This document shows positions 10,703 through 42,600 of a stretch of DNA of 64,000 nucleotides, in pieces; within the stretch, counting starts at the first letter, position 1, and each line of letters opens with the position of its first letter. The translations under genes and the position numbers were made by a program. Source of the DNA: Arcuatula senhousia (Eukaryota; Mollusca; Bivalvia; Mytilida; Mytilidae). The notes beneath the pieces are model-generated. The model did no database searches. It worked only from the letters and a program-made list of their open reading frames with translations, and was not told the DNA's origin. Where the stretch lies: NCBI GenBank assembly GCA_963971305.1, contig OZ020309.1:11277001-11341000 (forward strand). Direction: 5' to 3'.

Positions 10703-10816
10703 ATGCTGGACCTTCTATCTGCACTCAATCCATAGAAGAACAATGTGGTACAGCTGGAGATAAAACGGAAGATGTGCAAGATAAAACACAAATACAACAT
10801 TTACCGATATCTCAAG
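10703..10816 (+). CDS. VLIG module exon 1 (114 nt, phase 1-1)
   Basis: The acceptor is CTTCAG and the donor is CTCAAG before GTATAATT. It encodes one 38-residue module starting DAGPSICTQSIEEQ and ending PISQ, with a single cysteine at position 7 and the core GDKTEDVQDK. The first codon is completed by a G from the preceding exon. Its exon and downstream intron are nearly identical to those of exon 4 at 15254, which shows a recent block duplication. The true first exon of the gene was not found upstream. Confidence 0.75.
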
Positions 10817-11377
10817 GTATAATTTTGTTCTTTATTAAAGAATTATACGAAACTTTTGAGTGATATTTGTTCAAAAATTCTACTCGAGAGGCTGGTTAAA
10901 AATTTCACGAGTCATTTGGTGAGTGAAATAATTAGCTTTCGAAAGTAGTATTTTACAATGTTTTAGACAAATACCACTCACACGTTTCAAATAGTTCTTT
11001 AAATGAAAATACGTTTGCTGACCAATTAAAATGTGGCATTATCATATAAAGCGGAATTATAAAAAAAATAAACTTCCTTTGCTTTGATTTATTTCAATAT
11101 TCTAAGTCGTGCATATACATTTGAAATCCATTTTATTTTTAGTACATCATTAGAATAGATGGTAGACAATATATAAATGCATATGTTTAAAAAGATTAAA
11201 ATGTACATGTAAGATAACAAAAAATCACCAATTACAATTTTTTTGCAAAAATACCTTGAAAATATGTTCAAAACTGTTTCCCTTAATGTGTATAGATAAA
11301 ACATAGTTGTGTTTGTTTTTCTATGTGACATGTTACTGTGAGTTTGTGTGTTTTTATTTAAGCTACGTACTTTGTAG

Positions 11378-11491
11378 ATATTCAAGATATCGGATCTGAC
11401 GTTGACCGACCTGAATATGGCAGAAATTCCTCACAAGTGAGAGAAAAAGACGAAAACACCAATCCATTGAATCAACTGCTTTTCACTGAAG
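11378..11491 (+). CDS. Divergent 114-nt phase 1-1 exon in the VLIG array
   Basis: The acceptor is TTTGTAG and the donor is ACTGAAG before GTGTGG. Length and phase are identical to the ten canonical module exons and the frame is open. The 38 residues (DIQDIGSDVDRPEYGR at the start, NQLLFTE at the end) are hydrophilic and lack the module cysteine. It could be a highly diverged paralogue or a separate constitutive exon. The exact size and phase match argue that it belongs to the same transcript. Confidence 0.55.
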
Positions 11492-11726
11492 GTGTGGACA
11501 AGCTATATCCAATCCATCATTACAGCATTAAATTATTTCGATACTCGCATTTATATGTGTGGGTACAGCCACATATAAAAAAATAGTTGTTAGTAAGAGA
11601 TCATTTACTAACATGGAGTTTTGCTGTAATCTATTCAAGAATCATTTAAGGTGCTCTATAAAAAAATGAAATTGCCAAACGCTTTTAAAATATATATAAA
11701 TGGTGGTGCGTACAGCTCTGTAGAGT

Positions 11727-12185
11727 AATTGATATAATATAGAATGGATATGGTGAGCTGCAAAGTTAGAAGGGGTGTCCGTGTGCCAACAGTGATGAAA
11801 ATCATCTTTTTAAAGCCGTTGACACCGGTAAAGTCAGCATGGGGTTGAGCTGGAATCGAACCCATACTCTGTCATCTATGGCAACTTCGCCTGCACTGTG
11901 TCCAGCGCCCTAGACCACTAGACCACCTAGGCTAGATAAAAATCTAGCTTTCGGTTGCCTAGTTAAGCCTCCTCGTAGACAATCTAAGGTCGTAACACAA
12001 TACACGATGAACATTAGGTGGGTAGGGAGAGAAAGATCTAGGCAACCGAAAGCTAGATTTTTATCTAGCCTAGGTGGTCTAGTGGTCTAGGGCGCTGGAC
12101 ACAGAGCAGGCGAAGTTGCCATAGATGACAATGTATGGGTTCGATTCCAGCTCAACCCCATGCTGGATTTTCCGGTGTCAATAGC
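11727..12185. mobile_element. Head-to-head inverted pair of tRNA-derived SINEs
   Basis: A minus-oriented copy (about 11727-11945, box B complement at 11852-11863) faces a plus-oriented copy (about 12050-12185, box A near 12074, box B GGGTTCGATTCC at 12137-12148). The inverted arms are about 11826-11968 and 12034-12178. They extend beyond the tRNA heads through the shared GGCAACCGAAAGCTAG and leave a loop of about 65 nt. The pair lies in the intron between the divergent exon and module exon 2. A head-less third copy is at 56498-56626. Confidence 0.8.
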
Positions 12186-12560
12186 TCTTAAAATACATAA
12201 ATAAAGAGCATAAAACAAAACAAAAACCAATGCCGAACAAGAGAACTCAAATAATGACTTGGATCAGTCTATGGATATAAATAACCTTTTGACAAGTAAA
12301 AAAACCGCTCAATTTAATAGCTAAACATTGAAAGAAGAAAAGCTCCTTATTCTTAACATCAAAGAATAGACAAAATCAACTAATTTGATAGATATTAATG
12401 TTTATAACTATAACATTATAAATATACCCCTGCTATTTGTTACACAGGTAAATGTAAGTCCCTTTTCTAAACTAAATATTTAGGTGAAGTTTATTTGTAA
12501 TATATTTGTGGTTTTCTTTTTATAATAAAATACATTGTTTCTACTATAACATATCTTTAG

Positions 12561-12674
12561 ATGTTCGATCTTCTATCTGCAATCAAACCATAGAAGAACA
12601 AAGTGGTATATCTGGAGATAAAACGGAAGATGTGCAAGATAAAACACAAATACAACCTTTACCGAAATCTCGAG
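12561..12674 (+). CDS. VLIG module exon 2 (114 nt, phase 1-1)
   Basis: The acceptor is ATCTTTAG and the donor is TCTCGAG before GTATAT. The 38-residue module has C7, the SGDKTEDVQDK core and the end PLPKSR, which differs from the usual PISQ. It is open throughout. About 120 nt upstream is the duplicated intron block that begins TTGTTACAC. Confidence 0.75.
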
Positions 12675-13393
12675 GTATATTTTTGTTCTTTATTCAAAAT
12701 ATTTTAGTTGGTTTCTAATGAAGATGTTCTGTAGAACATGTTAATAATAACATTTATATTAATAGTTGCAAATTTCATGCAAGTAACCGTGCAAACTATT
12801 GATTACCTTTCTTTGAAATACATGTTGTTTTCAGTGGTTGTTTTCAAGTTATGGTAAAGAATAATGACAGATAATCAACAAAAGTGTTGTTTCTTTGTTT
12901 TGATTTATCTTTGATTTTTTAAATGTGATTTGGGCCATGCATAAACAGCTCACGATAGATGTATGATAGTGTCTTAGTGAAAATGTTTTTTAAAAATCGA
13001 TAATAATAAAAACAAATATTTTTTCTTCAATACTCTGAAAATAATATACAAAACTTTTTATGAGGTAAATGTATCGGTTTCAATGTACTATTATTTTCCA
13101 TGAACTGCATGTGGCATTAAAGCGGCGAATAATGTACAGTGAGAAAAATACCCTAATATATTATTTTAAAAACATCAATGATAAAAATATCGACCAAATG
13201 TAGACAGAAATTTCAATAATGAAATGAAATATGAAAGTAAATTTTTGTCAGAAGTGTCTGACACTATTTTACATAAAAATGAAAGTCATCAAGTTCTCAC
13301 CTTAGTTCTAAGCAGTTTGTGTGAAACTGAAAAATGTTTGCGTTGTTCTTTTGATAATCCTAACCCAATGTTTCTACTTTATCATATCTTCAG

Positions 13394-13507
13394 ATGCTGG
13401 TCGTTCCTTCTGCTCTAAAACCATGGAACAACAAAGTGGTATAGCTAGAGATAAAACAGAAGATATCCAAGATAAGACAGCAATACAACCTTTACCAATA
13501 CCTCAAG
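13394..13507 (+). CDS. VLIG module exon 3 (114 nt, phase 1-1)
   Basis: The acceptor is CTTCAG and the donor is CCTCAAG before GTATAG. The module starts DAGRSFCSKTMEQQ and ends QPLPIPQ, with the core ARDKTEDIQDK. It has C7 and no stops. The ARDKT variant links it to exons 7 and 10. Confidence 0.75.
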
Positions 13508-13974
13508 GTATAGTTTTGCCGTTATAAAAAAAATATCTTAATGTCTGTGAATGGTGGTCTGGAGAATGCAAAAATTAAAAATACTTTTTCATTAATAACT
13601 CAGCTTTTATTTATTTACATAATCTTAATAGTACCAAAAAGACGTAACTTAAACATATTACAACTTGATATCATATCTATTACATTACCTGAAAATTAAG
13701 ATATTTGCAATTTTATGAGAACTTCCCATGGTAAAAAAATCAATTTATATTGTGGCGTCATGTGACGTTGAAATGCTCTCCCAGATGAAAACAAAACAAA
13801 ATGAGTACAAAATACATCTGTGCGCTCAAGACTATTCCCAAAATCGACCATAAAGTGACATTCTAAAATTAAGCATTCACAAAATGACTGCCTTTTTTAA
13901 TATAGAAATGGCGATGGATGTACAATGAGTAAAAAACCCTAAATTATGATTTTACTTAACAAAAAATGATTTAA

Positions 13975-15139
13975 AGGGAAAGTTCACAAAAAAATGAAAA
14001 TTTGTCATATGATTTCTAATGCATTATCTAATTATGCTATATCATTTAAACTTTTATATTCAATTTAATAAGCTGACAAAAATGGAATTTTATTTTTTAT
14101 CTTTTGGTTTCTGTTATTTTAAATTACACAAAACATCTGAATACCACAAAGTCTCCTTTTGACAGTGACCCACCATTTACCTTAATTATTGAATTGCCAA
14201 TATATAATATTTTTATGTGCATCTATGTTATGGCATTTTAAATAGGTGATAGAAAATCCTTATTAAAATTAACAAAATTGAGTTATTCTTTAATTAGTAA
14301 TAATGATTTTTTTGGTATAAAAATCAATTTAAATAAGTCATTTTTAATTATCTAAGCCATGTTGTGTTGTGATAATCTTGCATATAAATCACATTGTTGT
14401 TTTAAATGCTAGAATGAAAATAAAATGATGTAGTACATAAAACTTTGTTTCTGAATGTTTGTATATTAGGTTTTGACACCTGTAGGTATTGATAATTATT
14501 TCACCCCAAGTCAGCTGTGACTAATTACATTATGTTTACCTAACCATTACACAGGTACCTGCTGAGAGACAATGACAATAAATTCACATTAATGAACACT
14601 TTTAGCAAACCCAGTGGGGGATTAGAAAAAGGATGACCTGTAATTTACATAATTATATCATAATTATTTTCAATGAAACATGATGGCTTACATTTAAATA
14701 CACAACTTCTTTCTTTATAGTAAATTAAAAAAATATGTTTTTGAATTATAGAATTCTCTTATTTTAATTAATTTATAATAAAGTTCAATTTAAAAGAAAA
14801 ATATAATAGATTAATAAAACGTTTTTAATAAGATTTTATATAGAAGTAATGAAAATATTAAATGATCTTGTTGACTTTTGATTATTTTAATTATTTTGTT
14901 GGTTATTGGATGTACCACATGATCACTTAAACGTTTGCACTAATATGATTTTTTGCTACTCAGTAGAAATTCTGATTAACTGAAGTAGTCCCCTAATGTA
15001 GAGTAGGGGACTATTTCAAATAAATAATCTCAAATATCTTTGTTATAAGTTAAGATATGAGAGTAAAAATTTGCACACTGTTATAAAACATTGTTCTGAA
15101 CAATTTAAGACCATATGTCAAAAATCGTGAACTTACCCT
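13975..15139. mobile_element. Non-autonomous DNA transposon with TTAA target duplication
   Basis: A 1165-bp insertion begins AGGGAAAGTTCAC and ends GTGAACTTACCCT, flanked by TTAA at 13971-13974 and 15140-15143. The paralogous intron at 10427-10430 has the uninterrupted site ATGATTTAAATAT, so the boundaries are exact. The TTAA target suggests a piggyBac-like transposase acting in trans. The interior is AT-rich and has no transposase frame. Confidence 0.82.
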
Positions 15140-15253
15140 TTAAATATAAACCATAAGTAAGCTCGTTTCAGACACGTCTTACCATAACTCTGTGTTTTTG
15201 TTACACCTGTAAATATTATCTAAATACATCGTTCAACCATAACATATCTTTAG

Positions 15254-15367
15254 ATGCTGGACCTTCTATCTGCACTCAATCCATAGAAGAACAAATTGGT
15301 ATAGCTGGAGATAAAACGGAAGATGTACAAGATAAAACACAAATACAACATTTACCGATATCTCAAG
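15254..15367 (+). CDS. VLIG module exon 4 (114 nt, phase 1-1)
   Basis: The acceptor is ATCTTTAG and the donor is TCTCAAG before GTATAATT. It is almost the same as exon 1 (DAGPSICTQSIEEQ, QHLPISQ), differing by a few bases. The matching block runs on through 15610, as it does through about 11060 after exon 1. Confidence 0.75.
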
Positions 15368-15619
15368 GTATAATTTTGTTCTTTATTAAAGAATTATACG
15401 AAACTTTTGAGTGGTATTTGTACAAAAATTATACTCAAGAGGCTGGTTAAAAATTTCACGAGTCATTTGGTGAGTGAAATAATTAGCTTTCGAAAGTAGT
15501 ATTTTACAATGTTTTAGACAAATACCACTCACACGTTTCAAATAGTTCTTTAAATGAAAATACGTTTGCTGACCAATTAAAATGTGCCATTATTATATAA
15601 GGCGGAATTATTACTACCT

Positions 15620-17940
15620 ATAATAAAAAAAACATTCTGGGATACTGAGATTAGGTCAAGTGATAAACCCAGTTTATCAACCGTTAAGTTCTAGTTAACG
15701 TTTACGGTCGATACAAAATGTATATAAGGTTTTTGTTACTTTTACTGAAACATTAAATGTAAACTATTTAAGAAATTACGCACGAATGTTTGAAATAATG
15801 ACAGAAATTTAAAAAAAAGATAATGCTGTTTTGTGTAAAGTATCTTTACGAGATCCGGAGGCACTAAAGTTAGTCCTTGTGAAAACAACATGTTTAGGAG
15901 AAATATGAGAAATACACAAATTTATCGGGAACCATTGTTCTGAATCGAGCATAATTTTGATTTCGGTTATACACAGTGAAATTTAGGGTATTGCATTTTT
16001 TTTTTGGGGGGGGGGGGGGATTGGCTGTTTAAAAAGTAAGAAGCTTGATATGGACATGTTGTAATGTTGGACAGGTTTGTGTTTGGTATATAAGTCAAAA
16101 AGATATTCTAATAATGAATGAAAAGTGGATGGAAAGGCTTGCGTTTGAGAGAAAATTTATAGCAATGTTCACGCTGCAAAAAAAAGATGTTTACATGTAG
16201 TTCATTATCCGTGCTTGTTTTATCTAGTGTGTATATCTATTCTTCTCTATTTTGATTAGTTTATATATGCGTGAGGTGTATTATATATATATATATATAA
16301 ATACATTAATATTAATTATACATTTTCGACCAGTGTCATATTGAAAAGAGAATCTCAACCTGAGCTTACCAATTTGTCCTTATCAAACTATATCCTTTGC
16401 CAAGTCATCTAACAAATACCTTATTGGCCCTGTCTGCACTTTGTCTCCGCCGCAACTCGGACCGGTGCATAGAAATGCCGTCTGTCCATGCGCTATTAAA
16501 CTTTTTTCGTAGTAGATTTCTCAGATACTGTTTTAAATCGTATGCTTTTAGTATTTGGTATGCAGCTTTAGATAGTGGTCTTATGTAGTGGGATGCCTTG
16601 TTTGTCGCTTAGCTACTTTCAGTTTATCGAGCTGAATTCATGTTTTAAGGGTCAAAAATGGAAAACTTTAGAGACTTTCTAGCTACTATTAACTTTCGAT
16701 ATTTGATATACAGCTTCAACTTAGAATCTTGGGTCTATCTTTCAACTACTTCCTGTTTAGCATACAAACTTATAATTTTTGCGGCCCAGTATTTTTGTTT
16801 TCGAGCAGAATTTTACCAAAATGTCCAAACCTATCCTGTCGAAACCAATTAAAGTTTTCGAAGAATAAATTATGAATCCGTCCTTAAGGTAATATCATTA
16901 CGGGAGAAATTCAAGGCTAACTTGGTATAGACATTTCATGTAAATATAGTTGAATGCACGTTAGATGCAGTTTCGGATTATATTCTTGAACTCAGTTGTA
17001 ATGTTTATTTTGTCTGCAACTTTGTCACCATTCGTCGTCTTGTGACGTCAAATAATCTGGAATACAACATGTACTATTATCAATTTTAATGCTCGTAACA
17101 TCCACTTCCTGTTAAAGGAATACTTTAAATTTCACAGATAATGATCTAATATACAAAATTTCCGTTGCAGTTTTTTACGTGCAACAGCCTCCTTATATCT
17201 TACATGTAGTTTTATTGTCACAGAAATGCATGGTGTATTGCGACAATTATTATGTTGATAACACATCTATTTTTGTTCAGGGACAAGACCTTTGTTCTCA
17301 TCAGATTTTTTTTTTGCAGAGTGGACAAAGTTTCGCGACAAAATATATTTCTTAATATTGGCTTTATTTTATATGACAAAAATCCTTCTTCAGAATATTG
17401 TTTTCTTTGTATTTTCATCAAAAATCAGATATAGAATACAGAAAAAAACCAAAATCATACTTTTAGTTAAATGGTCCCCAACTGAAATTTTCGAAACTCA
17501 GGCGACATACTTCTATAAGACAGCAGTTCTGTTTATTTATAAATCCGCTTAAAGTATTAATCATAAAACTGTATGTATGGGTTTTTCATTTTTTTAAACA
17601 TAACTAAAATCTTATTGGTTTCAACTTTACCTTGATGCTAAATAACTATTTTCCCTTTATAATCAATTGAACAAACTCATCTTTTGGTCTTAATTCTGAA
17701 GAAAGGTTCGCAACCACCTATTTTATTTTTTTTTTTGCATTCTTTCAATATGTTAAAAAAATCTAATGGATTTTGCATATACCTTCAAACCGTCTTATAC
17801 ATACCTTCTGTTGTGATCTTTAAAGTTTTTGTAAGTTTTAAAAAAAAAAATTAAAAGCTGATTAAAAACTAACGTTTTATAACGTTTTGAGTTGGTTATG
17901 AATAGACAGAACAATATTTGCATAAACATTTTATATTCAA
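15620..17940. other. Intronic stretch with decayed repeats
   Basis: This is part of the long intron after module exon 4. It holds a G-run near 16005-16019 and a TA microsatellite near 16284-16302. Positions 16490-16800 are a degenerate relative of the 160-bp tandem repeats at 48840-49220 (TTTGGTATGCAGC, ACTTCCTGTTTA). Positions 17275-17490 are a relative of 47100-47340. No gene is supported. Confidence 0.5.
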
Positions 17941-18723
17941 TCTATATAACCCGCTATACGAGAATATTATTTTTTACCGGTACAGACACTTTTTTACCGA
18001 GAATATGATGCATTATAGGAAATTTACGACGATGTTTACATCCTGAAGGGCATCTTTAATAGAGAGAACATAAGTTTGTGATATTTTGGTCGTTTTAGGC
18101 GATGAATTAATATATAAATGTAATGTGCACGCAATGAAGTAATTACTGACAGACAAAAAAATATGATTCAAGTTGAACCAATTCAGTTACACATGTTATA
18201 TTTTATCAATGCTGTCTTACAAATAAAAACAAAAATGCGTAAATTCATCAATCAAATGTACATTTAAACCATTCAATGTGTCAGTTTACCAGTATAATAC
18301 TTTTAACACGATAAATTAAACCATTTACCAATCCGATGCTACTTTTTTTAACGGTAACGCTGTAAAATTTTACCGTGAGTGCTACTTTGTTTTACCGTAA
18401 ACTTTGAACAGTTGCTACTTTTTTTCCCGATATTCGCTCCTTTTTTTCACCGATACTGCTTCTTTTTTTTTACCGATACCACTAACGGATGTAACTATTT
18501 GCTTTATCAATTATTAATATTTGGGGAAAATATAAAATAAAATTATGGAAAAATATCTACATGCTTTTTGGCTTTAACTGACCTTACCTACATCATTTTA
18601 AAATATTTTAGTTTTTGTATATCAGATGCGTTTTGATTAGACGATCATGACTAAATTTAAATGCAGCTATTGAACATTTAATACCAGTACTTTTGTAGCT
18701 ATTGTTAGCCACGCTACAGTAAA

Positions 18724-20790
18724 TAAAGGTAATAACAAAACTAGCGAACTTGAATGATCAATCTCATAGTCCAGAGAAAATGACAAAAACGAATCAGTCA
18801 TACCGGAGAACTGGTGGATCGCAATGGTCCTGACTTGGTACAGGCATTTCAAACGAAATGGTGGGTTAAACCAGGTTTTATGGCGCCAAACCCCCCTCTT
18901 CCATTGCGATCTTAGGGTCCGGTAATGACCATAGAACACAACATAGTTGTGAGACACAATAGGGATATTGAGGTGATCATCTCAGTACAGCAGACCAGTC
19001 AAACACTAATTAAAACAATTAACTATCATATATTTTAACTCAATTTTGAACTTTTCTACTAGTGGCTGATAACGAAGAAAGAATTATTTTAGTGATCGTA
19101 TGAGACGTATTTTCTTATAGCCCTGCTTCAAAAGTCGGTCACGAAGAAACTGGTGTCTGATCAAAAAATCTGTGAAATGTGTGCATATCGAATAAGTTGA
19201 GAAATATAAACACTGTATGCAGTAGAAGTAGGTATATTGCTCTGTAGATTAGGAAAATTAATAATTTGAAAATTAAAATCGTCTCGTTTATCGTAAATTT
19301 TTGTACTGAGATGACCACCTGGGTCAAATTCGAGGTGCAAATCCAAGAAAGACGTGAAGCAATTAGATTCGGTGGTCTCTTTAATCTCCAATTCCGGAGG
19401 ATATATTGAAGGAATCCAACTACCAAATGAAGTGTTATTGACAGAAAGGACATCATCAATATATCTGAATGTAAGATTAAATTACCTTGCCTCTTTCATC
19501 TTCTTGTTCTTTACGAGTCCCTGAAGAAAATCAGTCTCGTAAGAGTATAAAAACAAATCGGCGAGGAGAGGAGCACAGTTTGTGCCCATTGGAATGCCGA
19601 TTTGTTGTTGAAAAATCTCTCCTCCGAAGGTGACAAATATGTTGTCAATGAGGAAATCAAGCATACTGCAAACTTGTTCCAGTGTGTAACAAATTTTATC
19701 TTTGAAAGATGTTTTGGAAAAGAATGTAGAATTATAACCCAAAACAACAAAATTCCTTGAGTTTGAAAAGGCTTTTTCGAGAAGTTTTTTCAGGCGACAT
19801 TTTAGTTTTTCGTGTGGCAAGGTAGTGTATAAAGTTGAAAAATCGAACGTTTTCAAAGAGTGAACCTCAGAAAATGATTTAGATTTAAAATGATCTAACA
19901 AATCTTTTGAGTTTTTCAAAATCCACATATGGTTAATTTCACTACGATTATAAATAGTGTCGCAGTATGCTTGTTGACCTTCTTTGACAGCAGACAAGAT
20001 TTTAGTTAAATGAACGGACAGTTCTGTAGTTGAACATGATGAAGATCCAGCTATATACCTTTCTTTGTACGGATTTTTGTGAAGTTTAGGTATTCAGTAC
20101 AAATATGGTAACTCTTTATGTTCCTCTTTCATTGGAATATTGAAAGAGGACATAAAAGAGCTATGGTTGGCTATGATTTCATCTTTGTTAAATGTAGTCC
20201 GTGTGTATGTAGCACTAGCGGAAGTATTACCATCAATGCCTAGTTCTTTTATTAGACAATTGTAATAATGTGCTTTACATACAAAAACTATATTATTGGA
20301 AGCCTTGTCTGCTGGGGTGACAACATACCTGTCATGTAAGGAAGAGAGACAATTGAGAGCTTCACGATCTCTAAATACCGAAGAAGGCCGGGGGTTCACA
20401 CATTTGCGAAGTTTGTCTATTCGGCTTCGTACAAGAGATCGGATAGTCCTCACCCAGTCCGACAGTGATTCAAACTCTGGTTCTTGGTCCTTTTCCCTCT
20501 TTATCCAGGCTCTAGCATAGTCCTCCACAGCGTCCATGATGATCTTAAAGTTATGATTCCAATTTATACGTTGCGGTTCCCTGAATTTAGGTCCATGGGA
20601 AACCACATTACGTAATAAATCATTTTCAATAATCTTAAGATCACCCGTGATGACATGACCAGATGGACCATAGACAAAGGGAGAAGCATAGCAATCACAT
20701 GTCAGAGGGGACTTTAGATATTCTTCAATGTTTAGGTCCTGCAATGCCTTTTTGTAAAACATCCCGATCATCCAATTACAATGCAAAAGA
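18724..20790 (-). mobile_element. Penelope-like retroelement, copy A
   Basis: It holds the RT frame 20786-19161 and its 3' region down to 18724. The 3' region (from GGTAATAACAAAACTA) recurs at 21021, 5473 and 30403. On the - strand, copy B lies upstream in the same orientation, giving the partial tandem layout typical of Penelope-like elements. A GIY-YIG endonuclease domain was not found. Confidence 0.78.
19161..20786 (-). pseudogene. Penelope-like reverse transcriptase with two in-frame stops
   Basis: One frame runs from 20786 to 19161, broken by TGA at 20096-20094 (in a PYLY-stop-IPKLH context where W is expected) and TAA at 19484-19482 (just before FNLTFRYIDDVLS). Recognisable blocks, in order, are TPADKASNNIVFV, motif A FDFSTLYTTLPH, the GIPMGTNCAPLLAD block and motif C YIDDVLS. 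A third lesion near 19160 shifts the C-terminal RYA.ACTHF-type region out of frame. The family reverse-transcribes its RNA for genomic insertion. This copy is dead as read, unless the stops are suppressed. Confidence 0.85.
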
Positions 20791-20963
20791 GAAAATTTGA
20801 TGAAGACACATATAAGAGTTATAAACGGATAACTTTTCCAGTTATACCAAAAAATGAGTTTGACGCAGGGAGAACAATGCTTGCACTTGATGACAATCCT
20901 ACTTTGTCAGTTGAAGATCTAGACGAAGTTCTGGAACTACCTTCACAGGTCAAAAAAGTTTAA
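20781..20963 (+). other. Unexplained 60-codon open frame between the two Penelope copies
   Basis: The frame starts MQKRKFDEDTYKSYKR and is rich in acidic and basic residues. It ends shortly after CTTCACAG followed by GTCAAA, which could be a splice donor. It is antisense to the 5' part of Penelope copy A. The composition looks more protein-like than most chance ORFs here, but I recognise no family. Confidence 0.25.
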
Positions 20964-21020
20964 CTTGACAATGATGATTAGTCTATAGACGATAATATTA
21001 AAATGCAGACTGCTGAAAAT

Positions 21021-21985
21021 AAAGGTAATAACAAAACTACCGAACTTGAATGACCAATCTCATAGTCCAGAGAAAATGACAAAAACGAATCAGTCATACC
21101 GGAGAATTGGTGGATCGCAATGGTCCTGACTTGGTACTTGCACTTCAAACGAAATGGTGGGTCTTCCATTGCGATCTTAGGATCCGGTAATGACCATAGA
21201 ACACAACATAGTTGTGAGACACAATAGGGATATTGAGGTGATCATCTCAGTACAGCAGACCAGTCAAACACTAATTAAAACAATTAACTATCATACATTT
21301 TAAGTCAATTTTAAACTTTTCTACTAGTGGCTGATAACGAAGAAAGATTTTTTTAGGGATCGTATGAGACGTATTTTCTTATAGTCCTGCTCCAAAAGTC
21401 GGTCACGAAGAAATCGTTGTCTGATCAAAAAATCTGTGAAATGTGTGCAAGCTCTGGCATATCGAATAAGTTGTGAAATATAAACACCGTATGCAGGGGA
21501 ACTAGGTATATTGCTCTGTAGGTTAGGAAAATTAATAATTTGAAAATTAAAATGGTCACGTTTATCGTAATTTTTTGTACTGAGATGACCACCTGGGTCA
21601 AATTTGAGGTGCAAATCCAAGAAAGACGTGAAGCAATTTGATTCGATGGTCTCTTTAATCTCCAATTCTGGAGGATATATTGAAGGAATCCATCTACCAA
21701 ATGAAGTGTTATTGACAGAAAGGACATCATCAATATATCTGAATGTAAGATTAAATTACCTTGCCTCTTTCATCTTCTTGTTCTTTACGAGATCTTGAAG
21801 AAATTCAGTCTCGTAAGAGTATAAAAACAAATCGGCGAGGAGAGGAGCACAGTTTGTGCCCATTAAAATGCCGATTTGTTGTTGAAAAATCTCTCCTCCG
21901 AAGGTGACAAATATGTTGTCAATGAGGAAATCAAGCATACTGCAAACTTGTTCCAGTGTGTAACAAATTTTATCTTTAAAATGAG
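21021..21985 (-). pseudogene. Penelope-like retroelement, copy B, 5'-truncated
   Basis: It covers the RT C-terminal half and the 3' region, collinear with 18724-19700. It keeps QIGILMGTNCAPLLAD (a P-to-L change from copy A), YIDDVLS, and the same TAA before FNLTFRY that copy A carries. The match to copy A stops abruptly at about 21985, inside the CYTLEQVCSML region. It is non-functional. Confidence 0.8.
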
Positions 21986-21997
21986 AGTGAAATAGAT

Positions 21998-23529: not shown

Positions 23530-23643
23530 ATGTTGGACATTCTAACTGCCTTAAAACCATAGAAGAACAAAGTGGTATAGCTGGAGATAAAACTGAAGAT
23601 ATTCAAGATAAAACATCAATACAACCTCTACCAATATCCCAAG
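23530..23643 (+). CDS. VLIG module exon 5 (114 nt, phase 1-1)
   Basis: The acceptor is CACTTTTAG and the donor is CCCAAG before GTATAT. The module starts DVGHSNCLKTIEEQ and ends QPLPISQ. It is the first exon of a three-exon block (exons 5, 6, 7) duplicated as exons 8, 9, 10; its start lies 413 nt before exon 6. Confidence 0.75.
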
Positions 23644-23942: not shown

Positions 23943-24056
23943 ATGCTGGACTATCAATCTGTGCTAAAAACATAGAAGAACAAAGTCATATAGCTGGAGA
24001 TAAAACAGAAGATACCCAAGATGAAACACCTTTACAACCTTTACCAATATCCCAAG
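23943..24056 (+). CDS. VLIG module exon 6 (114 nt, phase 1-1)
   Basis: The acceptor is ATCTATAG and the donor is CCCAAG before GTATAT. The module has the TQDETPLQPLPISQ end that only exon 9 shares, supporting the block-duplication reading. C7 is kept and the frame is open. Confidence 0.75.
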
Positions 24057-24271: not shown

Positions 24272-24385
24272 ATGCTGGATCTTCTATCTGCACTAAAACC
24301 ATGGAAGAACAAAGTAGTAAAGCTAGAGACAAAACGGATGATATCCAAGATAAAACACCAATGCAACCTCTACCGATATCTCAAG
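24272..24385 (+). CDS. VLIG module exon 7 (114 nt, phase 1-1)
   Basis: The acceptor is TTACTTTAG and the donor is TCTCAAG before GTATAATT. The module starts DAGSSICTKTMEEQ and ends PMQPLPISQ, with core ARDKTDDIQDK. It pairs with exon 10 by the TMEEQ, ARDKT and PMQ variants. Confidence 0.75.
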
Positions 24386-24389
24386 GTAT

Positions 24390-26911: not shown

Positions 26912-27025
26912 ATGCTGGACCTTCCACCTGCAATGAATCCATGAAAAACCAAAGTTGTCTAGCTGAAGATAAAACAGAAGATATCCAAGAAAAAACACCA
27001 TTACAAACTTTACCAATATCTCAAG
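26912..27025 (+). CDS. VLIG module exon 8 (114 nt, phase 1-1)
   Basis: The acceptor is GTATATTTAG and the donor is TCTCAAG before GTATAT. This is the most diverged canonical module: DAGPSTCNESMKNQSC, with a second cysteine, an AEDKTEDIQEK core and the end QTLPISQ. It lies 413 nt before exon 9, the same spacing as exons 5 to 6. Confidence 0.72.
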
Positions 27026-27324: not shown

Positions 27325-27438
27325 ATGCTGGATCTTCAATCTGCACTAAAAGCACAGGAGAACAAATTCGTATAGCTGGAGATAAAACAGAAGATACCCA
27401 AGATGAAACACCTTTACAACCTTTACCAATATCCCAAG
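27325..27438 (+). CDS. VLIG module exon 9 (114 nt, phase 1-1)
   Basis: The acceptor is ATCTGTAG and the donor is CCCAAG before GTATAT. The module starts DAGSSICTKSTGEQ and ends TPLQPLPISQ, as in exon 6. It is open, with C7 kept. Confidence 0.75.
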
Positions 27439-31161: not shown

Positions 31162-31275
31162 ATGCTGCACCTTCTATCTGCATAAAAACTATGGAAGAAC
31201 AAAGTGGTATAGCTAGAGATAAAACAGAAGATATCCAAAATAAAATACCAATGCAACCGTTACCAATATCTCAAG
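31162..31275 (+). CDS. VLIG module exon 10 (114 nt, phase 1-1)
   Basis: The acceptor is ATCTTTAG and the donor is TCTCAAG before GTATAT. The module starts DAAPSICIKTMEEQ and ends PMQPLPISQ. It is the last module exon seen; the next in-phase acceptor is that of the giant exon at 39620. Removing the 3490 bp added by the transposon puts it about 347 nt after exon 9, close to the 329 nt between exons 6 and 7. Confidence 0.75.
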
Positions 31276-32774: not shown

Positions 32775-33157
32775 TTAAGACCTGAGTAATCTGCCTTCTC
32801 TTTAAACTCATTCTCATAATGCTCAGCCCGATCAACAGACTCCGCAAGGTTAGATGCCACCACATCTGCATCAACTAATGTATTAACCCGACTATAGTAC
32901 TCAGCACTTGTCCTACCAAACCAACCAACGTGATTCATCACCTGGTCCACATTGTCCGCAGAATTAGACAATGCTATCGTTACAGCACATCCAGATCTGA
33001 AGCTATGTGGCGTTTCTCCCTCATATATACCCAACGATGAAAGATAATAAGTAAGACGTTCATACATTACAGAATAATTAACAGCCTCGTCAAGTACTCT
33101 TCCACTCTCTGTTCGTTTCCTAAACAGGTAACCAGTTGATAAATCAACAGAATTCAA
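32708..33157 (-). pseudogene. Tyrosine recombinase, C-terminal catalytic part, 3' end altered by an insertion
   Basis: Of the tyrosine-recombinase catalytic set, the HxxR box is TPHSFRSG, the downstream H/W is HVGW and the nucleophile lies in AEYYSR. The frame can be extended upstream of 33157 to an in-frame TAG near 33210 and probably continues in a further exon that I could not fix. The last 15 or so codons come from the Penelope insertion at 32299-32774. Across the target duplication the original frame would have ended a few codons after YSGLK. The enzyme would integrate a circular DNA intermediate; loss of the natural tail may or may not matter. A Crypton-type origin is the alternative to a DIRS-order one. 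Confidence 0.62.
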
Positions 33158-33502
33158 TTTCAGAATTGTACATTTTGGAATTCTTTTATATTTTGTTATT
33201 GGCTATTTGTTTTTGAAATGACCAAGTCACATTGAAAATATTATTACATCTCTATAACAGAACAGTTGGTAAGATGTTTTATTTAACTGCACTGCACTGC
33301 TTATTTTTCTTGTCAATTGGTTTCATCTGTTCAACCAAATGGCTAAGCAATCTTTAAAATTGCCAAGCCAGTTACTCTGAAAAGTTGAACAGTTGGAATT
33401 GGTGGACGATCACGCCTATGATTAATGCACAATAATATTATTTCATTTTCCAATACAAGTCATCAATTGAACATAATGATCTTATATAAAACTTCACTAG
33501 AT
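33158..33502. other. Non-coding interior of the tyrosine-recombinase element
   Basis: This lies between the gag-like gene and the recombinase, where a RT/RNase H region would be expected in a complete DIRS-order element. Only AT-rich sequence without a usable frame is present. Confidence 0.5.
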
Positions 33503-34954
33503 TTATTTCTTCAATTTAATTTTCTTGGCATCTTTCATTTCATCACAATCTTTAATAGAATGTGTGTTAGAATCACAAAAAAGACAACTGCCCCTTGGAC
33601 GGAATCTTGGCCTTCCCCTAAATCCTGAATTATAACCTCCACGAGGGTATGAGTTATAGTGAGGAGGAAACTGCGGAGGAAATTGAGGTGGAAAAGAATA
33701 TTGAGGTGGATTTTGATACAAATTATATAAAGGAGAATCTTCTGGTTTCGGTGCGGACACCTCCTTCTTTGGTTCAACAGCCTTCTCAACTTTAACACAC
33801 TTTGAAATAGCCTTAGATATGACATCTGCGGCTTTGCCGCCCATGACCGATAACACTAAAGACGGAACATCTATCTTTGTCTGGAGACGTAACGCTTGTC
33901 TTGACAGCTCCTCAATAATTTCGGATTCATCATCTCCCTCTCTTTTGGCAGTTTTTGCCAATTCATCTAGAGTTATTAATATTAATGCATCACTAGGTCG
34001 TTCCATGAGACACAGAGACCTCACCTTCTGTTTTAAGTCCTGCACAGGTGACCTTTTTGCTTTCTCAAGACTAGCAATCCTGTCTTCCAAGGACGTGTCA
34101 TCAGGATCTGATCTTTGCCTTTTCCTAGCATTAGTACTTGTATCGTCTGACCCATTACTACTAGCTGTAGCACTAGCTTTAGCTCCAATACCACTACCAC
34201 TGGTACCAGGTGCCTAAAACATATGAATGGAGCATAATATTATTGAAAAATAATGCAGTGCTGCTTGCATGCACACCTACTAATTAATGTACCAACAACG
34301 AGTTTCATAAAATTTTTACAATAGTTTCATAAGAATAAACCCATATCCTTAAAAAACATAGCATACACAAGCAAACACGACATTAAAAAATCAAACAACA
34401 TGTCTCCCATATGCCACATCCTATTTAAATATGTATAGTTTATTGCAGAGTTTTACTAGATGATGATCCTTTTAGATATAATATATACAAATAAAATATA
34501 CATAACATTAAAAATTCATTCATTTAGAAATTCAATCTCATTTGTATGCAACCAATCACATTCAAATATAAAGATATGTCTATCATGTCTATTGTAAATT
34601 CTTTACAAATCACAAACATCAGATTCACTAGATACCTCAGTAGCAGCAAGAGTTTGGCCCTTTGGTTGACCATACTCATTGGCATATAAGATAATGCAGT
34701 GGAGCGCCCATCTTGCTTCATCAATATTCTCGTCTCTTCCGGCCAACATCAGGATCTCTCCAACTTTCTCCGTAGTAAGGGTTATAGCGTGGTCATTTAT
34801 TTCCTCCATACTCAAACTCTCTGTCTTAGTATCTATCAATTCTTGCAAATTCTTTCAGAGCCTCAGGCTTTCCTGATCTGATTCTCTTAATAACAGGAAG
34901 AATGTTAATGTCTCTTAATGAGTGCCTCCTTTTTAACACGGCAGGCAAAACCAT
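33503..34954 (-). pseudogene. Gag-like CCHC protein, two exons, one frameshift
   Basis: Exon 1 is 34954-34636, starting at an ATG placed directly after a TTTTAG and ending GCTACTGAG before GTATCT. Exon 2 is 34213-33503, after TTTTAG. The join is phase 0 if one extra T in the run at 34847-34851 is ignored; as read, that T shifts exon 1. Exon 2 encodes a Ser/Gly-rich start, a coiled-coil-like helical region around LEDRIASLEKAKR, a Pro/Tyr/Phe-rich stretch (PPQFPPQFPPHY), an RG/RPR basic patch and a zinc knuckle CLFCDSNTHSIKDC (C-x2-C-x4-H-x4-C). These are features of a retroelement nucleocapsid-type protein. I cannot assign it to a named family. Confidence 0.58.
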
Positions 34955-36986
34955 CTAAAATAAACAAAGTACACTTCCATCAGTTAAACAAGATACACGT
35001 CAACGTTCCATGACTTTGAATTTCGTAAAAATTCAAATACCCTATAGTTAATAATAAAATATCTCATAAATATAAAACTTAAGAGCGATGAAATAAATTA
35101 AGAATAGTAAATAAACACCACAATATTGTAAATGTATTTTAATCTGAATCGAGGGAATAATCAATATAATCCCTGGTGAAATGCCATCATCTCTCTATAC
35201 CTATTAAACATTTGGCATGTACTTTATTGCTAAATTTCTGAAACATTTCGTAGCACATACTTGGGATTTAAACCCCTGCCGCTAGCCCCCTAAAACCACA
35301 AAGGCAATATCATATGTAGTTTAGGGGACAATTTAGAATAACATTTGTCACACTACCTATACTACCATAAATAATTACTTAAGGTTCCACCAAAGTCAAA
35401 ATCTAGGACATGCACCTCCCATGCAAAGTTAAAAAGAATTATATAGAAAAATAGGAACAATATAAAACATATTGACTTCAAAAGCGAGTTCTTAGCTTTA
35501 TTGTGATATTTTGATGAAAATTTCATTTAAATTAACACAATATTGATTTTTGTTCGAAAAATTTCTCAAAAGTCAAACGCACCCTAACTTGGAATAAGAA
35601 TTTTCCAATTTAATCTAATTTTAATCCATTTTTAAACAAAACACATCTAGCTTGCACTAGATATATCAGAAAGGTATCAATTGAAGTAGTTTTTAAAGCA
35701 AAAGCTGATTTTAAATTTTCTGCCCAATTCTTTTCAACTCTACATAGGAAATGCATCTCCCAGATGTTGACCTTAGTGGAACCTTAAACTACGTAAACTT
35801 AAAGGTTTACCTAGCAATCCGTGAAAATCCACTCATGTACTATTATACATTTGTTTAGAAACAATTATGACCTTGCCCCCACTTCAAAATCAGACCACGC
35901 TCACCTGAGACCAGCGCGCTCACATACTAACCAGAAAAATTAAGCCTTAAATTTATATTTCAAAATCCGTGCACATATTCCGAGAAATACCCATCCATAC
36001 ATGTATTACAGTATATACACAAAAGCCATAAAATTAAAACTAACCATAATTGGTATTTTAAAACGTTCTCCCTGCTTGATAATTAATAATCAATAATTTA
36101 AATCACGCCAGTTTCAGCTGAGCGAGGCCCACATTGATATATAACTATTTTTAGCCACTGACTTTCATATCAATAATCAAAAATATGCACTTTCTAGATA
36201 TTTCGTGGGAGCGAAATGTCCCGGGCGAAATGTGGACAATGTACCGAAACATAAAATGCCTCATGGTAGTAAAAAACTTTATATCTAATTCTATACCATT
36301 TAATAGACACGGTACCCTTGACACATCATGTCATCAATTTTGCTACATCATAGCTCTTGCCATATCATGGCTCAAAATTGACACATCATGTCATTTGCTA
36401 CATCATAGCATCTTTGCCACATCATGGCTAATATAATTATAATTAAAAAATATATGACCAAAAAGGTCTTAACATCAAATTTACCCTCAGGGCTGAACAC
36501 GTGCGTTAAGTCCAATAAAAGTGAAGCACGTCCTTATCCGAGCTAAGATGTCTAAAGAATGAAGTTACATGTAAATCACATGATCTATTCCCGCCAAATA
36601 ATTGACCACTGAGAATCATGTGACCAATTTTAATAATGAAATTTATTGTAGTTTTAAGCTTAAAAATATTAAGGTTGTGCAAAAGTGTTCGTTTCTGTCT
36701 CCAATATAGTGCAAAGAATAACAGGTCAAAACGTTTGAAAATCTCATATTTAATTCTAGTGATTTTAGAAATAAAATGACAGAATATCAGAAATTTTGGT
36801 CGTTTTTTATGTAAATTTTGGACCAAAAAACATCGTCCGCACATGAAAAACAAGTTTAAGAGATGGTTTATATATTAGACATATTAACAATCTGTAAAAA
36901 TATTTAGTTGTTTCTTATGTGCGGATATTCTTTTCTAGTGACAATACTTAAAATAGATGTAAATTAACGATTATCTGAATAAAGTC

Positions 36987-37822
36987 CTGGGGCCAGGTTA
37001 ATGAAGTTGACCAAAGCTGTGTCCTAAACCATGTCTTAGGACTTAAAATGGGATATAGAAAGGATCATCCTTAGACGCGTCCTAGGATGTAAAACGAAGC
37101 CATCTTAGGATAACCACAAATAGGACTGTCCTTATAAGAATTTAGGATAATCATAATTAGCCATATGTAATGCATTTACACCGATGTAAAGGCGTTTGAA
37201 AAAAGAAGACTTTAGTTTTTTGTATTATATTTTCAAATGTAAAATAGATTCAAAAGATTTTTTATTGCGAATCCTTTGGGTATTTTTAGATAATAAAAAC
37301 ACTTTATTGCATTCCTTCATTCGTTGTTTTCTTCCGCGCGTTGCACTTATCACTAATATAAAAAGCAAATCATTAGGTTTGGGAAGCAAATATCCACGTT
37401 AACTGGTAAATGTTAATTTCAATTGTCTAGTACTACATTATATTAGAATATCGTCAAAATGTAACTGGTAAAACACAGATCAACAATATCCAACATATTG
37501 GTAACTATTAGGAAAATTTTATCAATGGCAAAAATATCTTTATTTGCTAAATTAAGAAAGTAAAATATCAAAAATGAGAATTGGGTTACATACAAGCCTC
37601 ATTCAAGGAGATAAAACCTATTTCATGCAGACACTTTTTTTAAGTTTAAAGGCAAAAGGATGGTCCTAAGACAACAATTTTCACATCCTAAATTTAGGAA
37701 TAAATTTAGGACATAGCCTTTTTTAGGATGCCTTCAATAACACTACTTAGGACTGCGACATGTCCAAAGACCATCCTAAGACATGTCCTAATCCTAGGAC
37801 ACCTTCGTTTACGCGGCCCCAG
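36987..37822. mobile_element. MITE-like element rich in TTAGGAC/GTCCTAA motifs
   Basis: The ends CTGGGGCC and GGCCCCAG are inverted. Both arms hold many copies of TAGGAC and its complement in both orientations (for example TGTCTTAGGACTT, ATCCTAAGACATGTCCTAA). The element is 836 bp with no coding potential. No clean target duplication is visible. Confidence 0.6.
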
Positions 37823-38990
37823 TTTCGTTATACAATCATTTAAATATTTTTTAAAAAGTATTTTGTTTTCGATTTTTGGATATCAAATAAATATATTATC
37901 AGCATCTGACAGCAGTATTCAAAGATTGAAACTTTTTAAAATTTTAGGCCTAAAACATGCCTCATCGCCCCTACTCCTTTAAAAAAGAATTATAATAGTT
38001 TGAACAGTTCTTAAGCATGTTATTTATTTGTTTTGTTTTTGGTTGGTAAGTTTTGTTTGAAATTTTAGTATCGAAAATGAAGTTTTGTTGTTAGTATTTT
38101 AAGCAGTTTCTTTACATAAATTTTAATAACATAAAAATGTGTACAAGATAGTTAGAAAGAAAATCACCCCACGAGAATTTTTTGACCATCCTCTGCATGA
38201 ACTGTATGATTACTGTAATATTTTTTTCAAAAATTGAGTTTATCATTTTTAATATTTATGGTATGCCTTCACGGATTGTTGTCATAACTTATCTGTTTTT
38301 AGTTTACGATAATATTCTAATTTCTTTTATGACGAATGAAATTATTTGTACAAATTTTAGGCAATCTTAAATAATAATCAATTTAAAATAATTTCTATAA
38401 ATCATACTGCCGTTCGAACGATTTTTTTAGAAATGGAAAAATACAAAATACACGCTGAGACCACTGCGCACAATTTATCATTTTAACAATAACAATGGTC
38501 TTCTCGACTGTCTAAATTAGTTTTTTTTAATTCTTAATTTATTTATAAATAGGCAAGTGTTGAATACGGGTTACTTTCGCAGGGGGGGGGGGGGGTAGGA
38601 GGGTAAGTTATTGGTAAAAACATATTTTAGGTTTTATTTTCATGGTTTGTGAATGTGTTTATAACAGATGATTTGCATTAGATGTGTATTTAAGCGGGAT
38701 TAATTTCGTGATTTCCGTCGACCTGCGAAAATTACCAACTACGACACAGTAACGTTTTTAACGTTTTAGAAGTATAGCCTATATAGTGAGATCCGGTCAA
38801 ATTGGATAACTTTTACATTAATACTTTTAATCGTAGCCTTTCGATATGTAATATGCAGATTCAGGTGGTGGGCTCATATGGTTTGATGCGAATTCAGGCC
38901 TGCTGCTTATCCTCTTCCAATTTATTGAGCCAACTGTTTATTTTTCGTTCGGCGGGAGTGAGCTTCAGTTTCTGTCTTGTCCCCCCCCCA
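37823..38990. other. Intronic stretch
   Basis: Part of the 8.3-kb intron between module exon 10 and the giant VLIG exon. It contains a G-run at 38582-38595. Otherwise it is AT-rich sequence with nothing I can name. Confidence 0.5.
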
Positions 38991-39420
38991 CAACGCGACG
39001 GAAGGACCTAGTATTAGTCTTCGTCCGTCTGTGCGTCCGTCCGTCACACTTTTGTGAGCGAATCTCCTCTGAGACCGCTCAACAGATTTTGATGATTTGA
39101 GGATGGTTTCTCATGAAATGTACTTGATCATATCGCATCGCTATTTTTAATAGACAAATCTTATAGGAGTAATGGGACTTTATCGACTTTGTTCATTTTA
39201 GGTGATAGGAACACTTTGTGAGAGCAACTCCTCTGAGACCCTGCTTAACGGATTTTGATGAAGTTTTGTGGAATTGTTGTTATGATATGTTGTTGATCAT
39301 ATAACACGCACATTTTGATTCAACCAATTTCATAGGACTTATGGGGCTGACTGTAACAATCTTATTTAGTATTGTTTTGATATATTTTTTCTGAGACATG
39401 ATTTTGTGCATCTTCTGTGG
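38990..39420. repeat. Diverged two-unit repeat with GTCCGTCCGTC tract
   Basis: After a GTCCGTCTGTGCGTCCG-type tract, two related units follow (about 39050-39200 and 39205-39350). They share CTCCTCTGAGACC, GATTTTGATGA and CTTGATCATAT/GTTGATCATAT. It has the same head-plus-tandem-unit design as other repeats here. Confidence 0.6.
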
Positions 39421-39619
39421 CATTTTCTGAATGAACTATTGCAATGAAGAGAACGAAAGTATTGCACTTCTTTATTTTTTATGAAAGGATATCGACATTA
39501 TTTACCTTTTTGATGATACATTTGTAAATCGAATTTTAACTGACAGATTTATTTCAACAAAAGTGTCCTCACTAATCTAAAACACGTCTACTTAATAATG
39601 TCTTTTTTTTTTCTTTTAG

Positions 39620-42600
39620 ACTGTCAAAGAAATGAAAAGGAGAACGTTAGAACTGCAACCATCCAAGAACTTGTGAAAAAGTTTTCTCTTGACAAGTTTT
39701 TTCCAGAAAAAATAACATTACAAGACGTCAGAGCCATGCAGTCGAAAAATGTCTCTCTATCAAAAGAAAATTTACCATGGTTGCTACTTATGAAATTGAT
39801 CATGGTAAACATAAATGCTAGAGAAGAGGATTTAGTTCAACTAGCAGATGAAAGCGATGATGAAGATATTGAACTCAACCCAATGGATCTATTTCTGATA
39901 ACATTTTTGTCCTGTGACTTAATTTTACAGCAAGAAATCATACTGAAAATGATTAAATGTCGACATGCTATTCCTTTCATATACAGAGATGAAAAAAATA
40001 CCTCGAGATGGTCGAAGCTATCTATGAAAAAGATTCTGGTGCCTGAACATACTGTCACGGGTATAAACACTGTGGATGCCCTACATCATAAGGGTAAAAT
40101 TGTGTCTTTCGTTAAGATTGGTGGTATATCGTTTTCCAAATCAAAACTTTTGAATATTGTTTTAAATGAAAATGCATATTCTACTTTTTTCAATGCAGAA
40201 TGTCCTATGGGTGATACTGATAGACTCATTGCTAGTGGAACAATCGAAGCATCTTGGTATTTTCCAAAAGACAAAAGTTCAGGATTATTTAATGAAACAA
40301 TAATGTTTCTCAATCTGAGAGGAGATGCAATGGAACATTCCGATGAAATTACCAAACTGTTGCAAATATCAAACGTAATCGTTGTTCTTACAAACGAACA
40401 TTCTATGCATGAAGCAAAATTCCAGGAAAAGTTAAATACTATTCCATCGGAATGCCTGTTATTGTATGCACTCGAAACAAATCTCAAAAAACGACAGTTT
40501 GACGAAAAAATAAAAAAGAAGTTATCGACACAAAAAAAATTGTTTTGCAGCTTAGGATCATCTAGAAATACCAGAAGCATATCTGATGTGGCTAAAGAAT
40601 TCAGAAAAATATTGACAGAGGCTGTGCAAACACGGCAAGGTATACGACTTGTTGACAATTTACATGTTTTAGAAGAAGGGAGCACGCTTTGTTTTAATAA
40701 AGTTGAAAATCTAGCAAAGGAGTTTAAAACTGTTTTAGAAAAATACCCCAAAAGTGAAAAAAATGAATTTGTTCCGGCACAAGGAAAGTTGTGGAACAAC
40801 TATAGTAAAAAATACAAGAAACACTTCAAATCCAAATCCATAGATGAAAAAAAGCATTTGGAAGAGGAAATAGTAAAAATCAGATCACAACAGTTACAGA
40901 AGTTGAAAGATGGTATTCATCCATTAATGAAACTCTTCTGCGGTCATATAGAAAAGTTATGTGAAATGTCTCAATTGGAATTTAGTATATACATCGAATG
41001 GATCATGTCATTCATTGATGATCGAAGTCGGGAAATGCTACCGGAGCGGGTTAAAAACTACAACATTTGCTGGAGAGCAATGAAGCTAGCCAAAGAAAAA
41101 CAAGGTAATAATGATAATGAAGAATTGAGAAAGCAGCTTTTGAAAAGTGAAGAAGACCTCATAGCTGCGTCATTCGGTTTAGAACACTTGTTGAGAGAGC
41201 TCGGTCAAATGTTTGAGGCAACAAAACCTATAGAAGCAAACAATCTTTTTAAAAGGGAAATTTTTATAGACTTTGCTTGTAAGCTTCTACAATATGGATA
41301 TCCATTTGAGCTTATGGATGGTGATACAGCAATGGTACCTCTTACTTGGGTAAAGGCGGTTTTGAAGCGTCTGATTGAAGTTATTGGTGACAAAAAAGTT
41401 CTTGCTATATCTGTCCTTGGAATTCAAAGTTCAGGAAAGAGTACTTTGCTGAATGCTATGTTTGGCCTAAAATTTCCAGTAAGTGCTGGACGATGTACCC
41501 GAGGCGTGTACATTCAGCTAGTAAAAGTTGAAAATAAAACTCTTCCATTTTCGCACATTCTTGTCATTGACACCGAAGGCCTTAGAGCTCCAGAGCTAGA
41601 ACACCAAACCCATTCACACGACAATGAACTAGCCACGTTTGTGATAGGGCTTGGAAACATCACCATTATTAATATAAAAGGGGAAAACACATCTGAACTT
41701 GAGGACATCCTTCAAATATCTGTCCATGCATTTCTTAGATTAAAGATGGCTAATAGACAGTTAGACATGAACCACACTTGCATTTTTACCCATCAAAACG
41801 TTTCTGCATCGAATGCTATGGACGCCAATGTCCATGGGAGGCAGAAGATGATAGATAAGCTCGACAAAATGACAGCAGAGGCTGCAAATCAGGAAGGTCT
41901 TGTTGATATCACAACATTTGATCAGGTGTTGGAACTAGATCCTGATTCACATGTCTTTTATTTTTCTGATCTTTTCATGGGGGACCCTCCAATGGCACCG
42001 GTAAACATAGGCTACAGTAAAAAAGTAGAAGAAGTAAGAAAACGTCTCATCAATGAAATTGCAGTTAAGAAAAGCATGCTGTTTTTGATGTTGTCAGACA
42101 CAATTACTAGAATTGAAGATCTATGGAAAGGAATTCTTACAGAAGATTTTGTCTTCAGTTTCAGAAACTCATTGGAAGTAAAGGCCTATAATCTAATGGA
42201 AACTGAATACTTCAAATTAACATCGTCGATTGACAACGTTATATATAAATATATCCAAGAAGATGTTCGGAACAAGTTGACCAGCTGTGAAAATGATGAA
42301 CTGTTAGACAAGAAAGCAATTGAAACAAAGCATGAACTGTTTAAATTAATGGTTAAGCATCAAGAAGAGGCTGTCAAAAATTGGAAAGATTTCATTGATA
42401 ATTGTTCATTGAAAGAAATTATGGAACAATGGCGAGAAAGCCGACAAAACAAATTAATAGAACACAAAATATATCTTCAAGCCGAGGTTAAAAAAAGTAT
42501 TGACGAAATAAAGCAAGAACGATCTGCATACCTCGTTCGAAAAAACGGGAACAAACACCATGAAAAGGAAATAAAACATAAAGCAATGATGCTTGCAAAG

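Follow-up and report, generated by a model that had tools for sequence, protein, structure and literature searches.

A tandem array of 114-nt phase 1-1 exons, probably belonging to a VLIG-type GTPase gene, in the bivalve Arcuatula senhousia

The window analysed here is a stretch of 64,000 nucleotides (nt) from Arcuatula senhousia (assembly GCA_963971305.1, contig OZ020309.1, here C7; C7:11277001-11341000). It contains a VLIG-type gene, named gene A, and upstream of its giant GTPase exon ten related segments of 114 nt. These segments, called modules A1 to A10, are probably coding exons of the VLIG-like (URGCP-type) GTPase, each of them predicted to encode one 38-residue unit of a repeat tail. 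Two paralogues are also considered, gene B, located 112 kb upstream of gene A, and gene C, at C6:45.05 Mb. The N-terminal parts of giant VLIG-type GTPases are poorly understood.

Segments of 114 nt bounded by AG and GT[AG] were screened in the region 10000-40000 of the window. Fourteen of them are open in phase 1-1, ten belonging to one family and four being unrelated. The ten related modules are on the + strand, span 10703-31275, and are all free of stop codons. AG precedes and GT follows each of the ten, all of them start with AT and end with G, and the donor context is AAG/GTATA in nine modules and GAG/GTATA in one. All ten encode a cysteine at module position 7. The giant exon starts with AC after TTTTCTTTTAG at 39620 and its stop codon ends at 44385; the modules are frame-compatible with one another and with this exon. 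Since four unrelated segments pass the same screen, a lone segment of this kind may be due to chance, but ten related ones cannot. The doubtful segment at 11378-11491 had no match to the module profile, and no convincingly scoring counterpart of it was found ahead of gene B. The RNA of A1, the one module tried, folds better than shuffled sequences (z -2.55, 2/200 equally good).

The giant exon possesses the URGCP-like GTPase domain PF25683 (353.9 bits, cut-off 55) and the URGCP-like N-terminal domain PF25496 (172.3 bits, cut-off 27). The P-loop motif is GxxxxGK[ST], and the translated exon contains GIQSSGKST. With both URGCP-like domains, the giant exon and the P-loop, gene A has sequence features of a VLIG-type GTPase gene.

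Module copies were also found before other VLIG genes. The DNA search with a single module revealed 20 places, 18 on C7 and two on C6, which is a lower bound, as two of the ten modules of gene A were missed. The profile of the ten gene A peptides revealed ten modules ahead of gene B, from C7:11172802 to 11197082, and four on C6, all other matches having E >= 0.5. The module lengths of gene B are 114 nt in six, 111 nt in two and 117 nt in two, all multiples of three, and the modules on C6, at least four, are all of 114 nt. All 24 copies from the three loci are open, in phase 1-1 and with AG/GT borders. Their last exon bases are AAG, except for A2 (GAG) and one C6 copy (AAA). The arrays of genes A and B are 7-8 kb from their GTPase exons, and gene C probably carries a frame-protected repeat array like these paralogues.

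An earlier note on this DNA had described ten stop-free 114-nt exons in phase 1-1 with AG/GT borders, able to join each other and the VLIG exon, and both descriptions were confirmed (10/10; all exons end in G, the modules start with AT and the VLIG exon with AC). Two further claims were borne out in gene A and in part beyond it. The cysteine at position 7 is present in 6/10 modules of gene B and in 0/4 on C6, and the length of 114 nt is shared by 6/10 modules of gene B, the others being of 111 or 117 nt. Neither the cysteine nor the exact length characterises the whole family; both belong to the gene A array. That the array is part of VLIG-type genes, as also proposed there, agrees with three of the eight VLIG loci having same-strand modules upstream.

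Nine GTPase matches, distributed over eight VLIG loci, were detected in the 1.04-Gb genome, the GTPase exon of gene B being C7:11204295-11209063. The VLIG locus on C14 (L008) has five stops within the GTPase match and is therefore probably a pseudogene. Modules upstream on the same strand are present at at least three of the eight loci, a count that leaves out the array status at C6:32.2, C7:24.8, C6:24.1, C6:14.0, and C14:46.9 Mb. Seven of the eight loci have a phase-1 acceptor candidate at the equivalent place or at most about 7 residues away, read from the sequence by eye and least certain at L005. The eighth locus (L007) is open across the acceptor point. The phase-1 intron directly before the giant exon is a natural home for 1-1 exons.

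Alternatively, the modules could belong to a separate gene, in a transcript not joined to the GTPase exon. The exon-scoring scan did not rank the modules of gene A, nor nine of the ten of gene B, among its listed matches. Since it missed known modules, its lack of other exons is weak evidence, and other exons of a separate gene near the gene A modules were thus weakly tested. However, the same-strand arrangement recurs at three VLIG loci, and the GTPase exon requires a preceding exon with a phase-1 end, which the modules supply. We consider a separate gene very unlikely, and infer that transcripts would join the modules to the GTPase exon.

Applied to 261 kb of C7, the frame-blind DNA profile revealed 20 full-length copies on the + strand, ten before gene A and ten before gene B. 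No decayed or partial copies were found with this profile in the 261 kb, the sole further match having E = 1.5. None of the 20 copies has a stop codon in the coding frame, whereas 15/20 and 20/20 have stops in the other two + frames. In estimates that are rough, as the tree lengths come from short sequences, neutral simulation on the tree of the 19 distinct copies kept every one free of stops in 3/2000 runs, a stop being present in 8.4 copies on average, and about 16 exon indels (about 18 with neighbouring modules taken out) were expected over the tree at the intron rate. In the introns of seven close pairs, 26 gaps were counted against 264 substitutions, and four of these gaps are multiples of three. 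The exon indels inferred were two, both of 3 nt, a deletion common to B2/B4 and an insertion common to B7/B10.

The selection that has kept the reading frame and the splice sites of the modules is supported by these results, in agreement with the earlier note. A chance origin of the open frames is ruled out by the frame-blind profile, the stop counts and the simulation, and a bias from choosing open copies alone is ruled out by the profile. That note had also named, among the signs that would speak against its reading, dN/dS (the ratio of nonsynonymous to synonymous substitution rates, omega) near 1 together with stop codons in other individuals. The value near 1 was observed, and within the one assembly 0/24 copies have a stop. 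As a neutral relic, the modules would be left over from duplicated sequence and open by recency or chance. An overall omega near 1 favours this explanation, and so do the 12 close pairs, in which divergence is not consistently lower in the exon than in the intron (exon divergence below that of the flanks in eight, above in three, namely A5-A8, B1-B3 and B6-B9, and equal in one). Nevertheless, it is very improbable given the lack of stops and decayed copies, the indels of 3 nt only, and the rarity of neutral runs in which all copies stay open. The features found in gene A, and those placed at the 5′ end of gene B, are listed in Table 1.

Table 1. Predicted features of gene A (window positions) and of the putative 5′ end of gene B (C7 positions).
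Feature	Position	Strand	Description
Module exon A1	10703..10816	+	114 nt, phase 1-1; AG/ATG...AAG/GTATAA, open; DNA-profile match
Doubtful segment between A1 and A2	11378..11491	+	114 nt, phase 1-1, open; sequence unrelated to modules
Module exon A2	12561..12674	+	114 nt, phase 1-1; AG/ATG...GAG/GTATAT, open; DNA-profile match
Module exon A3	13394..13507	+	114 nt, phase 1-1, open; sister of B6/B9 of gene B, support 91
Module exon A4	15254..15367	+	114 nt, phase 1-1, open; recent copy of A1 (96%, 398 nt)
Module exon A5	23530..23643	+	114 nt, phase 1-1, open; DNA-profile match
Module exon A6	23943..24056	+	114 nt, phase 1-1, open; A5-A6 / A8-A9 a duplicated block (84%, 784 nt)
Module exon A7	24272..24385	+	114 nt, phase 1-1, open; DNA-profile match
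Module exon A8	26912..27025	+	114 nt, phase 1-1, open; DNA-profile match
Module exon A9	27325..27438	+	114 nt, phase 1-1, open; DNA-profile match
Module exon A10	31162..31275	+	114 nt, phase 1-1, open; DNA-profile match
Giant terminal coding exon, URGCP/VLIG-type GTPase	39620..44385	+	phase-1 acceptor, single open frame to stop
Start-codon exon with double zinc ribbon	C7:11156003-11156210		PF12773 40.9 bits, phase-1 donor
603-nt phase 1-1 exon, charged repeats	C7:11157518-11158120		exon scoring; before gene B array

Several results weigh against the modules being coding exons of these genes that form a repeat tail. The omega of the modules is near 1, and purifying selection on residues was detected only in the second half of the gene A unit, a split chosen after the alignment had been seen. 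The A-B sister exons differ by 0.162, compared with 0.166-0.170 for three distal intron blocks, and are not clearly slower. The modules on C6 are about 50-58 kb upstream of the gene C GTPase exon, on the same strand, and their link to gene C is therefore weaker than for genes A and B. The first exon of gene A was not recognised, exon scoring giving one weak candidate, 429 nt before the window. The disorder predicted for the tail comes from a weak model of ten close sequences.

Omega was estimated by likelihood on fixed IQ-TREE trees, with nine distinct of the ten copies of gene B and 19 of 20 copies in the joint set. The values for the modules are 0.63 in gene A (likelihood-ratio test statistic, LRT, against 1 = 3.0), 1.00 in gene B and 0.79 jointly. 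The GTPase exon has an omega of 0.21 between genes A and B (LRT 265). Five single A-B sister module pairs range from 0.47 to 1.82, none of them different from 1. Nei-Gojobori ratios of sums, restricted to pairs with dS > 0.05, are 0.69 for A-A (42/45 pairs), 1.05 for B-B (37/45) and 0.97 for A-B (98/100), and dN exceeds dS in 13 A-A, 27 B-B, and 51 A-B pairs. Diversifying selection was not supported, as none of the three likelihood values is significantly above 1. The amino-acid constraint on the module exons is weak.

The unit sequences vary more in their first half. In gene A omega is 1.35 in the first half (LRT 0.56) and 0.26 in the second (LRT 11.2), and in gene B 0.92 and 1.23, respectively; the simple count test of the difference between halves gave p = 0.022. 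In gene A, constraint therefore seems stronger on the second half (DKTED...QPLPISQ).

Exons and introns were also compared for divergence. With gaps counted, the 45 A-A pairs have an identity of 83% in exons and of 49-66% in flanks, depending on the distance bin. Without gaps, the divergence p of exon, upstream flank and downstream flank is 0.171, 0.260 and 0.301 for A-A pairs, 0.178, 0.208 and 0.254 for B-B pairs, and 0.193, 0.261 and 0.316 for A-B pairs. Single substitutions across the whole unit look nearly neutral, whereas changes of the frame do not. A5 and A8 differ at 23/114 sites, and the rest of their duplicated block differs by about 0.148; this value corresponds to the intron part of both the A5-A8 and the A6-A9 pair (81/548, neighbouring module excluded).

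The module dS between genes A and B is about 0.22 (Nei-Gojobori). The synonymous divergence of the GTPase exon between both genes is 0.40 by Nei-Gojobori and 0.235 at four-fold sites, higher than the divergence of intron blocks between the arrays (0.17). Exchange between arrays A and B could be the cause of this gap. Constraint on synonymous sites was dropped as an explanation, because the clocks given by module dS, GTPase dS and introns disagree.

The history of the array was studied with a tree of 23 modules including 60 nt of flank, which covers all 20 copies on C7 and three of the four C6 copies. A1/A2/A4 group with B7/B10 (support 93), and A3 with B6/B9 (91), while the three copies from C6 cluster on their own (100). 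Since copies of genes A and B group across genes, the array predates the split of both genes, unless copies later moved between them. Block copies are present in gene B, where the B1-B2 region is repeated as B3-B4 (about 98%) and the B5-B7 region as B8-B10 (mostly 91-98%). Similar to gene B, gene A has block copies in A1/A4 (96%) and A5-A6/A8-A9 (84%). Growth of the array through block duplication at an old phase-1 intron would be the best reading of these patterns.

Two exons located before the array of gene B, a start-codon exon encoding a double zinc ribbon and one of 603 nt, probably form the 5′ end of this gene, as suggested by order, strand and phase. Genome-wide, 11 double-zinc-ribbon matches were found among 101 candidates scored, and C7:11156003 is the only one at a VLIG locus. 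Further matches on C7 are located at 5329558, 6460532, 6726292 and 8151592 (5.3-8.2 Mb). The search for a zinc-ribbon exon between the gene B GTPase exon and A1, a stretch without assembly gap, found none. The tblastx comparison of the regions of genes A and B listed 600 matches, of which one, outside modules and GTPase exon, is plus-plus and stop-free; it is located about 54 kb before the window, in apparent repeat sequence.

These findings raise the question of one start for two arrays and two ends, in which transcripts of both genes begin at the zinc-ribbon exon and the GTPase exons are alternative 3′ ends. The zinc-ribbon exon with its phase-1 donor, followed by a phase 1-1 exon, fits such a transcript, and so does the lack of a second zinc-ribbon exon ahead of gene A. 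However, gene A may have its own unrecognised first exon, such as the weak candidate before the window, the zinc-ribbon exon is tied to the gene B array by order, strand and phase alone, and transcripts would have to bypass a complete terminal exon. We regard this arrangement as unlikely.

If the modules are coding exons of the GTPase gene, each of them would give one polar, charged 38-residue unit, and units in series would form a repeat tail, probably disordered, ahead of the GTPase. With units in phase 1-1, block duplication or exon skipping could add or remove them while the GTPase frame stays intact. As every unit is frame-neutral, the copy number of the array can vary. Frame and splice sites would be held by selection, with most residues free to change. 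The tail may act as a tether or as a docking arm with many sites; this role, as well as any immune role, is what we infer from the predicted organisation.

The model of the unit is mostly unstructured, with one short helix (predicted local distance difference test, pLDDT, 68; predicted template modelling score, pTM, 0.15). Pfam search could not detect families over the cut-off in the unit, three matches with E 0.017-0.096 being all below it, and no relatives with E <= 1 were found in PDB. A known domain was consequently rejected for the unit. The search with the N-terminal 520 residues of the spliced model gave no protein match with E <= 0.001 among 7982 candidates scored, in a database that may be poor in animal proteins, since the start of the GTPase was also unmatched.

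A donor without G at +5 is a mark of a weak donor, and this G is missing in 20/20 modules on C7 and in 4/4 on C6. Module skipping is possible and plausible from these donors, and constitutive inclusion fits equally. A more far-reaching proposal adds regulated splicing to the repeat tail: transcripts would take differing subsets of modules, up to 2^10 = 1024 ordered sets, and a splice-selected cassette array would give hundreds of GTPase isoforms with differing repeat tails, possibly with one zinc-ribbon first exon shared with a twin array and a twin GTPase exon. The frame compatibility of all modules among themselves and with the GTPase exon, the donors lacking G at +5, and units differing in sequence, more so in the first half, are in agreement with it. 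Nonetheless, a constitutive repeat predicts the same anatomy, no significant positive selection was detected, and no VLIG case was found among the matches listed in the open-access literature. Regulated cassettes are therefore a tentative and rather doubtful extension of the repeat-tail reading.

Similar to VLIG/GVIN and URGCP, gene A encodes both URGCP-like domains over the Pfam cut-off in one giant exon, and has several paralogues in the genome. Mammalian VLIG consists of a single coding exon, whereas here a ten-exon array of 38-residue units is located in front. Dscam-type clusters also possess tandem homologous exons in one gene, as found here with ten each before two genes. However, Dscam exons are mutually exclusive, and here all modules are symmetric, so that any number fits and mutual exclusion is not required. 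Parts of titin or elastin are examples of repeat proteins in which each symmetric exon encodes one unit; they resemble the predicted tail in growing by duplication of exon-bearing blocks, but here the unit is another one and the partner is a GTPase. The omega above 1 of a diversifying-selection exon family was not observed in the module copies.

One study describes an expansion of the VLIG family in two clams (PMC11592408), and another lists GVIN1 among genes upregulated in one clam group (PMC8674894). Schistosome microexon genes contain series of symmetric exons whose skipping causes no frame shift, with microexons of 6-36 bp apparently giving protein variants via alternative splicing (PMC5825161). 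The likeness lies in the symmetric exons (here 24/24 in phase 1-1), whereas the modules are of 111, 114 or 117 nt, outside the range of 6-36 bp, are copies of one unit, and precede a GTPase. In the open-access literature on exon duplication nothing nearer than PMC5825161 was found. No description of a VLIG with such an exon array was found among the matches listed in the open-access literature, most subscription papers being outside it, in line with the earlier remark that none was known.

Other elements were also present in the window. By eye, 4030-8150 corresponds to a Harbinger-type DNA transposon with inverted ends near 4064 and 8027, which contains a HARBI1-like open frame near 6321-7677 (+) and a second open stretch near 5000-5950 (-). 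The intron between A1 and A2 has a long inverted repeat at 11850-12150, also seen by eye. The intron between A4 and A5 contains direct repeats at 18721-19707 and 21017-21981 (92%), and the - strand open frames that they surround (19482-20906) are reverse transcriptase-like by eye. One run of N is present in the window, at 58224-58323. A - strand open frame of 1009 residues with Cys-rich repeats (59642-62671) is unrelated to the array.

For the VLIG family, the array would mean that the length of the tail can be changed by duplication, and possibly by splicing, with the enzyme untouched. If the modules are alternatively used, they would provide combinatorial diversity in an invertebrate immune-type GTPase. 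If they are constitutive, they would be a clear case of a reading frame protected far more than the residues it encodes.

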